From: a virus
Strand: one strand, 5' to 3'
Virus record (IMG/VR): IMGVR_UViG_3300009085_000015
Location: 1-38,752 of that record
DNA: 38,752 nt
Both the position numbers and the translations under genes were made by a program. The notes under the pieces were generated by a model, which made no database searches, had not been told where the DNA came from, and was given only the letters and a program-made list of their open reading frames with translations. Position 1 is the first letter of the stretch; each line of letters begins with the position of its first letter. This document shows, piece after piece, positions 17,257 through 35,236 of the stretch.

Positions 17257-17447
17257 TCTGGCCCCAATTCATAGCCATATAGCTCTATAAATTTCTGTTC
17301 CTCATTATGCCAGTAGTATACGCCATAGCATACACCGTTTTCGGTTATGATAATCCTGCCAACATATCCATGGTGAGGCCCAAAGATAACGCGGTCGCGG
17401 ACTGCGTATTCTGTTTCTACAAATACCGGCGTTTTCACTCCGTTCAT
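17253..17447 (-). CDS. Small hypothetical protein between portal and MuF genes
   Basis: A 64-residue beta-rich protein with an SH3-like look (YAVRDRVIFGPHHGYVGRII; GVYYWHNEEQKFIEL). Both ends overlap neighbours by ATGA, so it is translationally coupled to the portal and MuF-like genes. Small SH3-fold proteins with a similar pattern occur as minor structural or regulatory components, but no specific family was recognised. Confidence 0.75.
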   Translation of the reverse strand: MNGVKTPVFVETEYAVRDRVIFGPHHGYVGRIIITENGVCYGVYYWHNEEQKFIELYGYELGPE

Positions 17448-18727
17448 TCCTGGGTATCCTCTTCATCATCAACATCATCTAAAGTCAAGCCAGTACTCGG
17501 AGCAGACTTCTTAACCAACTTCATTTCAGCCTTAACACCATTGGGCAATATGTTTGCTGGCAAGTAGGCCAAGGCGGTTTCTTTTGAGGTCAATGTAGAC
17601 AATTCAACGGCACTACGGATTATGTCTGCTTGATTGATCGGCAAGTCTGCTTGTATGGTAATATCAAGCCCCTCGAATGGCACGTTCACCAGGATATGTC
17701 CACAAATCATTTTAGCCCTGTTCTGTAGGAATTTCAGGAAGTACGGCTTTATGCTGTTGAACCTGTACATCATGGGGAGTAGGCGCCATTTCTGAGCCTC
17801 ACCTGATGCACCGGCGAAATTCTCGTCATAGGCGTCTATGATTTGTAGTGCTTTGGTAATGTCCTCATTCACTACCTTGAGCGCCATTTCGATAAAATCG
17901 GTTGGAATGTCCCTGGTAATAAATGCCGCTTCATTTGCTGGATCTTCTGAACCGTCAAGAATCTTCCACATCTTGACCTTGTCTGCATCGGTGAGACCAG
18001 ATTCGTCTGGAGCATTAGACAGGCGTTTCTTGAGCACCAGGATTGCAGCATTAAAACGCTCTCCTTCGTTGGCAACGTCTTGGGAGAGTAGCTTGTCTTT
18101 AAGGTCAATCAAAGTTAAAGCATGGTCGAAAAGGTTTTTCCATTCGGCTTGGAACGGGCCACAATTGACGGGAACTGTACGGTATCCGTGTTTTTCTTCG
18201 GGTAGTGCAGTCCAAGTACCTTTGATCTTCTCATAACGGTAGATAAAGTCCTTATCCAAGTAATCGGCATACTCTGATTCACCAATCTTGCGATACCAAA
18301 TGAAACCCAAGAGCTTGGGCCGAATGTCATTCGACCAAAGCGGAATACCTTGGTCAAACGGGATTATTTCAAACTGTGGCCCTTCCTCAGAGAACCAATG
18401 CAACTCATACATTCCACCATGCCTTGCACCTTGCTCAAACTCATTGGCAGAAACTAAGGGCTCGTCGTTCAGGTCATAGATAGGTTTCAGGACGCTATCG
18501 TACAAATCACCGGCATACTTGATGTTACCCGGGGAGGCACCATATCCCTTGAAAAGGGCGATACATACCATGGCGTTGGGGCTTACTATTCGGGCATCAG
18601 GTGAAGGCTGTGGAGCTGGCCTTAGTATTGCAGGGTTGTAGCCCTGTGCGTATGCGGTCTGCTGGTTGATTCTTGGGAGTCTATTGGTTAGGGAGTCAAT
18701 GTGGGCCTGTAAAGTTTTAGTGTCCAT
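17444..18727 (-). CDS. Portal protein, SPP1 gp6-like
   Basis: A 427-residue portal. Recognisable parts include FKGYGASPGNIKYAG, WFSEEGPQFEIIPFDQ, RRTIVPVNCGPFQ-like strand VNCGPFQAEWKNLFD, DLKDKLLSQDVANEG (the helix leading into the tunnel) and the acidic C-terminal tail DDVDDEEDTQE. It forms the dodecameric ring through which DNA is packaged. I start it at the ATG at 18,727 because a good promoter predicts transcription beginning on that very base; the longer GTG form at 18,748 lacks a ribosome site. SPP1-type portal plus MuF plus scaffold is a standard head module. Confidence 0.85.
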   Translation of the reverse strand: MDTKTLQAHIDSLTNRLPRINQQTAYAQGYNPAILRPAPQPSPDARIVSPNAMVCIALFKGYGASPGNIKYAGDLYDSVLKPIYDLNDEPLVSANEFEQGARHGGMYELHWFSEEGPQFEIIPFDQGIPLWSNDIRPKLLGFIWYRKIGESEYADYLDKDFIYRYEKIKGTWTALPEEKHGYRTVPVNCGPFQAEWKNLFDHALTLIDLKDKLLSQDVANEGERFNAAILVLKKRLSNAPDESGLTDADKVKMWKILDGSEDPANEAAFITRDIPTDFIEMALKVVNEDITKALQIIDAYDENFAGASGEAQKWRLLPMMYRFNSIKPYFLKFLQNRAKMICGHILVNVPFEGLDITIQADLPINQADIIRSAVELSTLTSKETALAYLPANILPNGVKAEMKLVKKSAPSTGLTLDDVDDEEDTQE

Positions 18728-18733
18728 AACGAT

Positions 18734-18762
18734 ATTGTACCCCCTCACCTTGATTTAGTCAA
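18734..18762 (-). promoter_or_regulatory. Promoter of portal gene, predicted leaderless
   Basis: Minus strand TTGACT (18,762-18,757), a 17-base spacer and TACAAT (18,739-18,734). The expected start site is 18,727, the A of the portal ATG. It overlaps the end of the BRO gene. Confidence 0.65.
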
Positions 18763-19397
18763 ACACCGATCATTTTAAGACTTGCGTCAACTACACTTGC
18801 TGTTTCTGCAATGGATGATTTTACCATAGGCAATCCTTGCACATCTTCTCTGCCTTGTAGTTTCAACATTTCCATGGTTTCAAATATCAGTAGCTTGGCC
18901 TTTTCTTCCGGCGTCATGTCAGGTTTGCGGATGGTTTCGCTCTTAAATACTTGGCGGTATTCTTCGACCGTTGCCTTTGCATAATCAGACCCAACCAAGC
19001 CATGATCCTTCCATTGGTCAGTGAGTGAGTTTCTTGCCTTGGTTGATTTGATGTCAAGTTGTGTTTTCTTGGCCTTATACGAACCGGTCTTTCTAATTGA
19101 TGGTAGTACTTCCGATGTTACCCATTTCCTGAATGGTTTCGCCTCTGGTTTGTCTGACCTGAGTAGCACCGAATACAGGCCAGATTCGTTTATAATCCAT
19201 GCATCTTGTTTTCTTCCTATTGAATCAGTGAGTGGAGTCAGACTCCGTTCATCATCATCAAGTCGCTCAGCCACCCTCCGAACATCTCCTATTTCAAGAA
19301 TCGCGCAAACATCCTTGAGGGCAAACCATGGCTGCCCGTTGATAGTAAATGTCCGTACTTCAGATTCATTGAACTTGAAAACTGCAATGTCATTCAT
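18759..19397 (-). CDS. BRO-N domain antirepressor-like protein
   Basis: A 212-residue protein with an N-terminal BRO domain of about 110 residues (FTINGQPWFALKDVCAILEI; WIINESGLYSVLLRSDKP; FRKWVTSEVLPSIRKTG). BRO proteins are DNA-binding and often act as phage antirepressors. The C-terminal half is a separate helical region. The start at 19,397 has GGAG six bases upstream. The first codons lie only about 15 bases beyond the T-run of a terminator hairpin, so expression needs readthrough of that leader. Its target repressor is not identifiable. Confidence 0.82.
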   Translation of the reverse strand: MNDIAVFKFNESEVRTFTINGQPWFALKDVCAILEIGDVRRVAERLDDDERSLTPLTDSIGRKQDAWIINESGLYSVLLRSDKPEAKPFRKWVTSEVLPSIRKTGSYKAKKTQLDIKSTKARNSLTDQWKDHGLVGSDYAKATVEEYRQVFKSETIRKPDMTPEEKAKLLIFETMEMLKLQGREDVQGLPMVKSSIAETASVVDASLKMIGV

Positions 19398-19411
19398 TCT
19401 AAACTCCAAAT

Positions 19412-19448
19412 AAAAAAGCCCGCTTGCAGGTGAGAGTCTGCTTGCGGG
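19412..19448 (-). terminator. Terminator or attenuator upstream of BRO gene
   Basis: A strong GC stem (AGCCCGC/GCGGGCT) continued by GCAG/CTGC across an AA/AA internal loop, then TTTTTT. It lies between the leader promoter and the BRO ribosome site. Confidence 0.85.
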
Positions 19449-19503
19449 CTTGGCTGGTACGAATTGACCACGGAAGCTCTCACCCTTCCATCGTCAATCT
19501 GAT
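19412..19503 (-). ncRNA. Leader or small RNA with two complementary hairpin loops
   Basis: A predicted transcript of about 92 nt from the promoter at 19,510-19,538. Hairpin 1: ATTGAC pairs with GTCAAT enclosing GGAAG/CTTCC with the 8-base loop GGTGAGAG. Hairpin 2: AGCCCGC pairs with GCGGGCT enclosing GCAG/CTGC with the 8-base loop ACTCTCAC, followed by six T. The loops share a 7-base perfect complement (GTGAGAG with CTCTCAC), which predicts a kissing interaction. It ends just before the BRO ribosome site, so it may be a terminated small RNA, a regulated leader or both. Confidence 0.65.
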
Positions 19504-19509
19504 ACCTGT

Positions 19510-19538
19510 AGTATATAGTACTTTCTCTATATAGTCAA
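19510..19538 (-). promoter_or_regulatory. Promoter of leader RNA and BRO gene
   Basis: Minus strand TTGACT (19,538-19,533), a 17-base spacer and TATACT (19,515-19,510); start expected near 19,503. It begins directly after a terminator for the upstream transcript. Confidence 0.85.
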
Positions 19539-19539
19539 C

Positions 19540-19574
19540 AAAAAGACCCTCCCCCAGCCAACGGAAGGGAGAGG
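19540..19574 (-). terminator. Terminator after structured RNA tract
   Basis: On the minus strand CCTCTCCC pairs with GGGGGAGG (one G-T pair) around an 11-base loop, then GTCTTTTTG. It isolates the leader promoter from upstream transcription. Confidence 0.75.
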
Positions 19575-19679
19575 ATCAGCCACGTACCTAAGCCGATTCG
19601 GGACAGCTCGGCAAACACTGTGTTAACGCCGTTACCCACGGCTTCCCTTGGTTCCTGGCAGCTCTACGAGCAAGGCGGA
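19575..19679 (-). ncRNA. Non-coding tract of consecutive hairpins after tRNA-Thr
   Basis: No convincing open frame. On the minus strand several short stems follow one another: GCTC/GAGC inside CCTTG/CAAGG, GCCGT/ACGGC, AACAC/GTGTT and GCCGA/TCGGC. With the terminator that follows, this looks like the 3' part of a structured transcript that begins upstream of the tRNA. A defined RNA family was not recognised. Confidence 0.4.
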
Positions 19680-19750
19680 TGCTGGATGAAGGAATCGAAC
19701 CTTCACAATCTGCTTACAAGGCAGAAGGTCTACCATTAACCTAATCCAGC
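19680..19750 (-). tRNA. tRNA-Thr (anticodon TGT)
   Basis: A 71-nt cloverleaf: acceptor GCTGGAT with ATCCAGC, D-stem GGTT with GACC and a GG-containing loop, anticodon stem TCTGC with GCAGA around CTTGTAA (anticodon TGT, reading ACA), T-stem GAAGG with CCTTC around TTCGATT, discriminator A. The CCA end is not encoded. It may supplement host decoding of ACA codons in late genes. Confidence 0.93.
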
Positions 19751-19919
19751 AAGTACCGGGCATTTTACGTCCCTTCCGGCAAGACGTTAGGTTTGACCCG
19801 TAGTATTGGTACTGCAATACCCAGCACTGTCTCAGTGAGCGATGAAAAAAAGCACAAGAGGTTGTAGTCTCCCGTGATAGCCATTGGTGGAGTTGCACCA
19901 CCGGACCTGTTATGGCTTT
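19751..19919 (-). ncRNA. Structured non-coding tract between small membrane gene and tRNA-Thr
   Basis: On the minus strand several stems are clear: AGCCAT/ATGGCT enclosing GGTGG/CCACC with loop TGCAACT, then the terminator-like hairpin at 19,845-19,876, CACTG/CAGTG, GTATTG/CAATAC with loop CAGTAC, and ACGTCTT/GGGACGT. One open frame crosses this tract but it is an out-of-frame shadow of the small membrane protein. I interpret it as leader or processing RNA of unknown role. Confidence 0.4.
19845..19876 (-). terminator. Terminator after small membrane protein gene
   Basis: On the minus strand CACGGGAG pairs with CTCTTGTG (two G-T pairs) around an 8-base loop, then C and seven T. Confidence 0.7.
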
Positions 19920-20039
19920 TTATTTTGGCAAAATAATCTTTATCAATCCAGCAAAAGCACTTGCGATAATTGCAAGTAAAAATGCCGATCCAAGCCAATG
20001 CCAAAAGTCCTGAAAGATAAACTGTAATACTTCTATCAT
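19920..20039 (-). CDS. 39-residue membrane protein, left-arm copy
   Basis: The encoded peptide begins MIEVLQFIFQDFWHWLG and continues with a hydrophobic helix (LLAIIASAFAGLIKII) and a short basic end (LPK). AGGAG lies five bases before the ATG. A second copy at 29,692-29,811 in the other arm differs by 9 of 120 bases and three internal residues, so both copies are under constraint. The layout (amphipathic N-terminus with aromatic residues, then one helix) recalls small phage membrane proteins with an FWHWLG-like motif, function unknown to me. Structured RNA and a terminator follow. Confidence 0.8.
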   Translation of the reverse strand: MIEVLQFIFQDFWHWLGSAFLLAIIASAFAGLIKIILPK

Positions 20040-29691: not shown

Positions 29692-29811
29692 GTGATAGAA
29701 GTATTACAGTTTATCTTTCAGGACTTTTGGCATTGGCTTGGATCGGCTATTTTACTTGCAATTATTGCAAGTGCTTTTGCTGGATTTATACGGATTATAT
29801 TGCCGAAATAA
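29692..29811 (+). CDS. 39-residue membrane protein, right-arm copy
   Basis: A second copy of the 19,920-20,039 gene. It starts GTG instead of ATG with the same AGGAGTTGAT leader and encodes VIEVLQFIFQDFWHWLG followed by LLAIIASAFAGFIRIILPK. The protein differs at three positions beyond the start codon (Phe19 to Ile, Leu32 to Phe, Lys34 to Arg). The first 54 bases after the start codon are identical, indicating recent duplication or gene conversion. Because it sits in the early arm it should be made at a different time from the other copy. Confidence 0.75.
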   Translation: MIEVLQFIFQDFWHWLGSAILLAIIASAFAGFIRIILPK

Positions 29812-29855
29812 CATCAGTAAAAGAAATAGAAATCACCTACACTGGAGGAATAATC

Positions 29856-30143
29856 ATGATAGTAAAAGAAGTTTTAGAGCTTGCTCACGGTACATGCAGT
29901 ATGCGGGATGAACTTGCTAATGCACATCTTGGCGCTTTGCAGAAGATTGCAGAACTAAAAGCAACTATTTCTGTACTTGAGTATGAAAAATCAATACTAA
30001 AAGACATTGCTCTTTGTGCAAAATATTTGTCCAAAGAATATCTTAATTACGGTGGTACAGAATGGACTGAGGCAAAGTGTCTGACGATAAAATATCGATG
30101 GGAAGATTATGATAATTTTATCCATGGAAAGGATGATATATGA
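29856..30143 (+). CDS. Hypothetical protein with VKEVLELAHGT module, copy 1
   Basis: A 95-residue protein opening MIVKEVLELAHGTCSMRDEL and continuing with a helical region (ALQKIAELKATISVLEYEKS) that looks like a coiled coil, then a Tyr/Trp-rich end. Its first ~35 residues match the gene at 35,673-35,903 almost exactly. GGAGG precedes the ATG. Function unknown; the conserved helix may be a shared interaction module. Confidence 0.75.
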   Translation: MIVKEVLELAHGTCSMRDELANAHLGALQKIAELKATISVLEYEKSILKDIALCAKYLSKEYLNYGGTEWTEAKCLTIKYRWEDYDNFIHGKDDI

Positions 30144-34153: not shown

Positions 34154-34547
34154 ACAATTTTCGCTCCAAGTGGAGCGATTATACCACCAACACAGGCAAT
34201 TGCTTGCCATGGGCACCATGCGGGCTCATAGACCTACTGCGCGGTTGTTGGTGGAGTTCTACGTCAACCGGTTCGACCATGTCCGGTGTATTGTGGACGG
34301 GATTACCCACGATAACCGGCAGGATATTCCGTTTAACGAGTTCTGCCACCGGGCCAGTTTTAAGGATGAGTACCATACGGCAATGGTTGAACTCAAGGAA
34401 AGAGCGGAGATTTCTGGTCTATCTGTCCTGGAGTACGTGCAGAAGGTATTTGGGGACAGGTTCCCGAAATGGGATCTCGTGGTAAGGGACGGAAAGAGCG
34501 TGAGAGTGGACGAAAACGAGGTGGAGTGGAATGGATATAACCCATAA
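34143..34547 (+). CDS. Hypothetical protein, 134 residues
   Basis: The peptide MNAEQFSLQVERLYHQHRQL is mostly helical and rich in His and Arg (RAHRPTARLLVEFYVNRFDH). The ATG at 34,143 lies within the end of the zinc-ribbon gene. No family was recognised. Being co-transcribed with a zinc protein from cassette B suggests a shared regulatory job, not provable here. Confidence 0.7.
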   Translation: MNAEQFSLQVERLYHQHRQLLAMGTMRAHRPTARLLVEFYVNRFDHVRCIVDGITHDNRQDIPFNEFCHRASFKDEYHTAMVELKERAEISGLSVLEYVQKVFGDRFPKWDLVVRDGKSVRVDENEVEWNGYNP

Positions 34548-34624: not shown

Positions 34625-35236
34625 ATGAAAGCGGAAGTAATCATGAAGCGTGAAATCTTTGGTGGTGAGATTAGCCAAGCAAGCAAGAGTGAGTTTTTCT
34701 CTGCTACTGACTTGGTTCGGGCCGGAAACAAATGGAGAATAAACAACGGTTTACAGCCATTTGATATGTCGGCATGGTTTTTGCAATCAGGAACAAAGGA
34801 ATTTATCAAGGCACTTGAAAACAAATTTGGTGAAGTAAAGACCGCCGGTCGTGGCCGTGGTAATCACACTTGGGTTCACCCATTCCTATTCATTGATATG
34901 GCTCTTGCAATAAGTCCAGAACTAAAGATTGAGGTTTATGGATGGCTGTACGATCATTTGCTTAAATACCGAAACGATTCAGGTGATAGCTACAAAAAAA
35001 TGTCAGGCGCTTTGTTTGAGGCTCTTGGGAATAAATCAACTTTCCCGGCTTTCATAACAAACACAGCATTGGTAATAAAAAATGAAGTTCTAAAGTCTGG
35101 AGATTGGGAACACGCAACAGAAGAACAGCTTGAATTGCGCGATAAAATCCACAGCAACATTGCACTTCTTGCAGATGTTTTACCACCACAAGATGCCGTG
35201 AGGGTCGGCATAAAGAAGGCTTTAGATGGATATTGA
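34625..35236 (+). CDS. KilA-N domain protein
   Basis: A 203-residue protein with a KilA-N domain: FSATDLVRAGNKWRINNGLQ, MSAWFLQSGTKEFIKAL, RGRGNHTWVHPFLFIDMALA and the closing VYGWLYDHLLKYR (about residues 24-117). KilA-N proteins bind DNA and often act as phage regulators or antirepressors. The second half is helical and separate. AAGGTGG precedes the ATG, behind a promoter with nested operator-like repeats, suggesting autoregulation. Confidence 0.85.
   Translation: MKAEVIMKREIFGGEISQASKSEFFSATDLVRAGNKWRINNGLQPFDMSAWFLQSGTKEFIKALENKFGEVKTAGRGRGNHTWVHPFLFIDMALAISPELKIEVYGWLYDHLLKYRNDSGDSYKKMSGALFEALGNKSTFPAFITNTALVIKNEVLKSGDWEHATEEQLELRDKIHSNIALLADVLPPQDAVRVGIKKALDGY

Follow-up and report, generated by a model that had tools for sequence, protein, structure and literature searches.

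The leader analysed here lies on the minus strand of IMG/VR virus record IMGVR_UViG_3300009085_000015, of which positions 1 to 38,752 (38,752 nt, hereafter the window) were examined. The first gene behind it, at 18759-19397 (-), encodes a BRO protein of 212 amino acids counted from the ATG, with a Bro-N domain (PF02498, E 2e-25). The portal protein gene follows on the same strand (17444-18748, PF05133; the ATG at 18728 is the likelier start), and then Mu F-like and further head and tail genes, so the leader heads a structural operon and not BRO alone. A tRNA-Thr gene (anticodon TGT, 19677-19751, minus strand) is located between the leader and the terminase-side genes. It ends before a terminator-like hairpin (19544-19567, minus strand) that lies just upstream of the promoter and would insulate the leader from the tRNA transcript. 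Given this hairpin and the tRNA gene upstream, the leader seems to begin a transcription unit of its own.

The predicted promoter, TTGACT-17-TATACT (19510-19538; -35 box at 19538-19533, 17-nt spacer, -10 box at 19515-19510, all minus strand), was read directly from the sequence. The transcript expected from it is about 92 nt long, starting near 19503 and ending near 19412 (minus strand). Hairpin 1 (19457-19505, main stem 19499-19462) consists of 4 + 7 + 7 bp with mismatches and was present in both the minimum free energy (MFE) and the centroid structure; its 8-nt loop 1, GGTGAGAG, covers 19477-19484. A linker of 5 nt in the fold separates it from hairpin 2 (19416-19451; 8 + 4 bp around a 2x2 internal loop), which carries loop 2, ACTCTCAC, at 19430-19437. 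Since hairpin 2 runs into the T-run TTTTTTATTT (19408-19417), it is an intrinsic terminator. The Shine-Dalgarno-like GGAG of the BRO gene (19404-19407) and its ATG at 19397 lie directly behind the T-run, leaving no space for a second promoter. Both hairpins occur together in the MFE fold, whose energy of -42.9 kcal/mol compares with -26.8 +/- 3.2 kcal/mol in shuffled sequences (z -4.98; 0 of 200 shuffles as good). GTGAGAG in loop 1 (19483-19477) and CTCTCAC in loop 2 (19436-19430) form seven contiguous Watson-Crick pairs with all 14 bases inside the loops, an assignment based on direct reading, the fold and covarying relatives.

A first-pass annotation of the same DNA had described two hairpins, the second a terminator, with a perfect 7-base complement between their loops and the BRO gene beginning just behind the T-run, and each of these points was borne out by sequence and fold. 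It had also described the promoter as near-consensus. The site is present and matches the consensus at 10 of 12 positions, but such a match is common by itself, with 4 sites found against 4.6 expected in 2.6 kb. Assignment of the promoter rests on its position and on a Bacteroidota-type motif at the same place in most relatives, and it is to be read as a prediction from sequence.

To place the leader among its relatives, loci were collected in several ways. Viral contigs were searched for the pattern GTGAGAG...CTCTCAC, and after a check of the structures 93 loci remained in which the first word lies in a hairpin and the second in a terminator-like hairpin; the ATG mostly lay a few bases behind the T-run, and the spacing between the two words varied. 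The same pattern in cellular genomes hit 118 loci, of which 7 passed a loose structure filter and 1 had an open reading frame (ORF) in reach. These cellular hits were essentially chance, and the scan was set aside as a survey of hosts and kept as a negative control; the near-absence of structured leaders from cellular genomes implies that the element belongs to phages. The decisive set comprised loci fetched by identity to two replication proteins, with loop sequence unused. A loop-agnostic scan, which required a 7-base complement, two loops left unpaired when folded separately, at least 5 pairs per stem and a T-run, found 99 leaders with an ORF directly behind in these protein-fetched loci, against 0 in dinucleotide shuffles; when all hits were counted, the numbers were 115 and 11. 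In the whole 38.7-kb window, the leader described above was the sole match with an ORF behind.

Applied across all phage loci collected, the loop-agnostic definition yielded 120 unique leaders, and the layout of promoter, hairpin, terminator hairpin and ATG thus recurs in about 120 distinct phage leaders, most of them at the head of replication operons in Bacteroidota phages. From the terminator stem to the ATG there are usually 9-19 nt. As part of this set was fetched through the GTGAGAG pattern, class frequencies in it are biased towards GTGAGAG. The Bacteroidota-type promoter motif TAnnTT[TCG] was present upstream of hairpin 1 in 98 of the 120 leaders (40% in shuffles), most often 5-7 nt before the hairpin, and the strict form TAnnTTTG in 62 of the 120 (5% in shuffles). 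In many Bacteroidota members, including locus L419 and its relatives, the linker that joins the two hairpins contains a small third one (AGGTT...AACCT), which is missing from the window leader.

Searched with blastn against cultured phages, the window leader gave only weak Listeria and Staphylococcus matches (E 0.02-0.08), and the leader of locus L103 gave no blastn match. Among 39 loci with related BRO genes, L038 alone has the same motif; L031 is a tentative third case, with a candidate leader (GGCAAAC/GTTTGCC) about 140 nt before the ATG, and no leader was seen in the remaining loci examined. In the nearest relative by terminase large subunit (L041, 69%), the region from terminase to portal carries no leader of this kind.

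In the protein-fetched loci the loops vary widely yet remain complementary. Their loop pairs include GTGAGAG/CTCTCAC, GTGGTAG/CTACCAC, GTGGAAG/CTTCCAC, GTAGGAG/CTCCTAC, GTCGGAG/CTCCGAC, GTCAGAG/CTCTGAC and GTAGTAG/CTACTAC, as well as ATGCAAC/GTTGCAT, GTTGCAG/CTGCAAC, GTCGCAT/ATGCGAC, ATGGTAC/GTACCAT and CTCTCGAC/GTCGAGAG, the last with its purine and pyrimidine sides swapped; overall, there are about 20 pairs. When loops were taken from the fold of each hairpin alone, at least seven contiguous Watson-Crick pairs joined a leader's own loops in 52 of 65 leaders. For several of the other 13, which belong to the ATGCAAC-type class, the loops were miscalled by the automatic procedure, and the loops of L491 retain seven pairs with one G-U. 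Between loops of different classes, the longest complementary run was 5. Near-identical backbones bear different loop pairs, and inside the main class the GT...AG loop ends are nearly invariant. A reading of the loops as Shine-Dalgarno and anti-Shine-Dalgarno mimics was dropped, loop sequence not being conserved across classes.

A MAFFT alignment of all 38 leaders misaligned the shorter-loop classes and was replaced by two length-matched alignments, A4 and A5. In A4 (22 sequences) the kissing helix was paired in 100% of cells, and two of its seven pairs showed a change of both partners, each in 11 of 22 sequences, where cells count sequences and not independent events. None of 500 shuffles and no slid register reached the whole-structure covariation score of A4; covariation is also seen in both stems, and A5 agrees with A4. 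The first-pass annotation had proposed looking for covariation in the stems and loops of relatives, and both were found. It had named independent variation of the loops in homologues as the outcome that would speak against its reading, and this reading survives, given that the loops covary in a set collected blind to them. With so many unrelated loop classes, common descent alone is insufficient as an explanation. Comparison of the sequences indicates that the 7-9 bp loop-loop (kissing) helix is selected, complementarity being kept while the sequence changes, and we regard the pairing as almost certainly real for the family.

The genes behind the leaders are mutually unrelated. They encode replication-type proteins (with Lin1244_N, DUF6291, HTH_36 or unnamed N-termini), NUMOD4/HNH endonucleases, a PAPS reductase-like protein and Bro-N proteins. 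The gene is usually that of a replication protein and sometimes an HNH/NUMOD4 endonuclease or other gene, while Bro-N was found behind the leader only in the window and L038 (tentatively L031). In 17 metagenomic loci, a short gene separates the replication gene from the leader, with the leader remaining at the head of the operon, and this intervening gene indicates that the leader belongs to the operon head. The first-pass annotation had tied the leader to an antirepressor gene. A Bro-N gene, a putative antirepressor, does lie directly behind it in the window, but most relatives precede replication genes; the antirepressor link is therefore not the essence of the element, which heads an operon and not a single gene. 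HNH-like or NUMOD4 (homing-type) endonuclease genes occur directly behind the leader in L178, L179, L210, L233, L261, L264, L273 and L298, where mobile endonuclease genes may have been inserted between leader and replication gene.

Leaders of this kind were also present in cultured phages, where most stand before a small gene that precedes the replication protein gene. Loop pairs were GCATCCTAC/GTAGGATGC (9 bp) in Tenacibaculum phage JQ, GTGGTGG/CCACCAC in Olleya phage Harreka_1, CGGGCAGG/CCTGCCCG in Flavobacterium phage 11b, TGAGAGC/GCTCTCA in Flavobacterium phage elemoC and CTCTCACAA/TTGTGAGAG, with swapped sides, in Cellulophaga phage phi13:2. Flavobacterium phage hemulen6-1 (L592) has two leaders, one with GTCGTCG/CGACGAC before a NUMOD4 endonuclease gene and the other with GTGAGACG/CGTCTCAC before gp40, the small gene preceding its replication gene. 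A second leader, which differs in its loop pair and stands before a different gene, also occurs in each of L100, L170, L179 and L258. Loop pairs thus differ within the genome in all five two-leader phages, a small sample, as expected if loops are specificity tags that must not cross-react. In the plain MFE fold of some weakly stemmed members (JQ, Harreka and 11b), the loop-loop helix replaces the hairpins, a hint from modelling that loop pairing may be able to compete with the terminator.

At the gathering score, Rfam 15 matched only tRNA in the window and no riboswitch or leader family. Relaxing the search to E 10 over 19380-19600 gave nothing meaningful, the best sub-threshold hit being Trp_leader with 20 bits against a cutoff of 41, and 19 related loci had no match to any family, C4 (RF01695) and IsrK included. 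The first-pass annotation had known no named RNA family with this layout, which accords with these searches. We found no description in the open literature, a search that did not extend to the unnamed motifs of large computational surveys (e.g., PMC8040213). The leader looks like an undescribed RNA family, a variant of phage RNA attenuators.

Several known systems share parts of its anatomy. In plasmid pT181, the gene behind the attenuator is the replication initiator; a separate antisense RNA is made from the opposite strand, and an antiterminator overlaps the terminator. Here, in contrast, both loops come from one strand, and in the MFE fold of the window leader hairpin 1 and the terminator form side by side without overlap. 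The sole nearby opposite-strand promoter-like site in a consensus scan, which may miss others, was at 19491-19519 (+) and points away from the leader. In attenuators of the pT181 type, contact between kissing hairpins controls an intrinsic terminator in the leader, and orthogonal variants are possible, although specificity is not always determined by the loop sequence alone (PMC3753616). P4 CI RNA is a short RNA processed from the leader of a phage replication operon, and it pairs with leader sequences to cause premature transcription termination before the replication genes (PMC4825925). A predicted short leader RNA of a replication operon fits the anatomy of most relatives; the window leader precedes BRO and structural genes. 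CI pairs in trans with seqA/seqC, with termination and immunity as the result, and its targets are separate sites upstream and downstream of CI, while the complementary stretches here are the apical loops of adjacent hairpins, the second of which is itself the intrinsic terminator.

The C4 RNA (RF01695) of phages P1 and P7 is a small structured RNA that controls an antirepressor gene, with pairing sequences thought to lie in loops, and is important for P1/P7 heteroimmunity (PMC12197685). C4 is encoded ahead of the antirepressor gene within one transcript. In the window, the putative antirepressor gene (Bro-N) lies directly behind the leader, and most relatives precede replication genes. C4 targets the ribosome-binding-site (RBS) region of ant and blocks translation; here, neither 7-base loop word matches at the BRO RBS, and outside the leader the whole window contains them only once (GTGAGAG at 34500, plus strand). 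IsrK of prophage Gifsy-1 has a promoter, a short RNA ending at an intrinsic terminator and partial read-through into an antirepressor operon; its short form targets the long form in trans, rearranging structure around the orf45 RBS and activating translation, and kissing loops are not mentioned there (PMC4825925). A layout of promoter, terminated short RNA and read-through is predicted here too. The leader would work like an attenuator of the P4 CI or pT181 kind but is assigned to neither of these families nor to C4: no Rfam model matches it, its loops find no complement at the BRO RBS, and hairpin 1 is clear of the terminator.

Taken as a whole, the element is probably a compact attenuator RNA at the head of an operon, with its own promoter, a sensor hairpin, a terminator hairpin and then RBS and ATG. 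That genes behind the predicted promoter can be transcribed from it by read-through only is supported; the anatomy gives good grounds for expecting the downstream gene to depend on read-through of the terminator, and the downstream operon is likely attenuated. Most transcripts would stop at the terminator and give a stable RNA of about 90 nt, and read-through would feed the operon, that is, BRO, portal and structural genes in the window and replication genes in the Bacteroidota phages. Loop-loop contact would set the fraction of read-through, and we consider such control probable. The most likely route, of which we are less certain, is that loop 2, transcribed ahead of the terminator's 3' arm, pairs in cis with loop 1, which would strain or delay closing of the terminator and so allow read-through. 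The released short RNA, carrying both loops, might occupy nascent loops in trans and favor termination as phage copy number rises; such trans action is conceivable, though we would not presume it. As a working hypothesis, we favor a combination in which cis contact is a weak antiterminator and trans contact provides feedback, with loop sequence serving as a specificity tag like those of immunity or incompatibility groups.

By a rough distance estimate (2.8 A per bp and 6.2 A per linker nt), a coaxial kiss with all stems closed needs a linker of about 14 nt. Linkers suffice for this in 78 of 120 leaders and are too short in 42, as well as in the window with its 5 nt, and with a short linker cis contact needs partly open stems or occurs only in trans. 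A short-linker cis kiss would hold part of a stem open and hence act against termination. A more speculative version, which we put forward tentatively, is that the leader of about 90 nt is its own antisense partner: the terminated RNA would pair loop to loop with new copies and thereby measure genome copy number, and the complementary loops, which diversify quickly, would define immunity groups among co-infecting phages and prevent cross-talk where one genome has several such switches.

The strongest rival, itself doubtful, dispenses with cis kissing altogether. The RNA of about 90 nt would dimerize or pair with nascent copies, loop 1 to loop 2 of another molecule with two contacts per pair, and act as an immunity or copy-number device. 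The short linkers of the window and the 42 leaders favor it, as do the allele-like diversity of loops on near-identical backbones and the different loops in two leaders of one genome; P4 CI RNA and IsrK, short leader RNAs with a trans effect on the longer transcript from their own region (PMC4825925), and C4 in P1/P7 heteroimmunity (PMC12197685) are precedents by analogy. Against it, linkers in most leaders are long enough for cis contact. A rather improbable rival is recognition of the loop-loop complex by a protein (an antiterminator or repressor of the phage, or an RNA chaperone), as in antitermination of the nut or put type, with the pairing as a scaffold. Antiterminators are frequent at the heads of phage operons, and the nearly invariant GT...AG ends of the main class also speak for it, but between classes the loops vary completely, including purine/pyrimidine swaps (L505, phi13:2 and Tenacibaculum JQ), which leaves the loops without a constant site for a protein. 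Inverted repeats close to a promoter commonly serve as operators, and GTGAGAG...CTCTCAC could be an operator pair for a DNA-binding protein with incidental hairpins; this is highly improbable, as both repeats come after the promoter, each in the loop of a stem with covariation of its own, the second is always followed by a T-run, and repeat spacing varies. Equally improbable is a plain strong terminator with a small RNA and chance complementarity in the window. A single 7-base match between two 8-nt loops in one sequence could arise by chance, but loop-agnostic conservation and covariation in more than 100 leaders refute this for the family.

Under the favored attenuator reading, an RNA family supported by covariation and apparently undescribed stands at the heads of replication operons in many phages, cultured ones included. 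It would be a simple natural attenuator whose specificity seemingly resides in a 7-base loop pair that has changed many times in evolution. It bears on how phages time their replication genes, on possible RNA-based exclusion between co-infecting phages and on the design of orthogonal RNA switches.

Elsewhere in the window, a second antirepressor-like gene, with a KilA-N domain, lies on the opposite strand (34625-35236, plus strand); no kissing-loop leader was found at it by the loop-agnostic scan. The ORFs at 19765-20004 (-) and 29727-30143 (+) begin with nearly the same peptide (MALAWIGIFTCNYRKCFCWI and MALAWIGYFTCNYCKCFCWI, respectively), which indicates that the window holds two copies of a short DNA segment. 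Read in another frame, this segment may encode a small membrane peptide.
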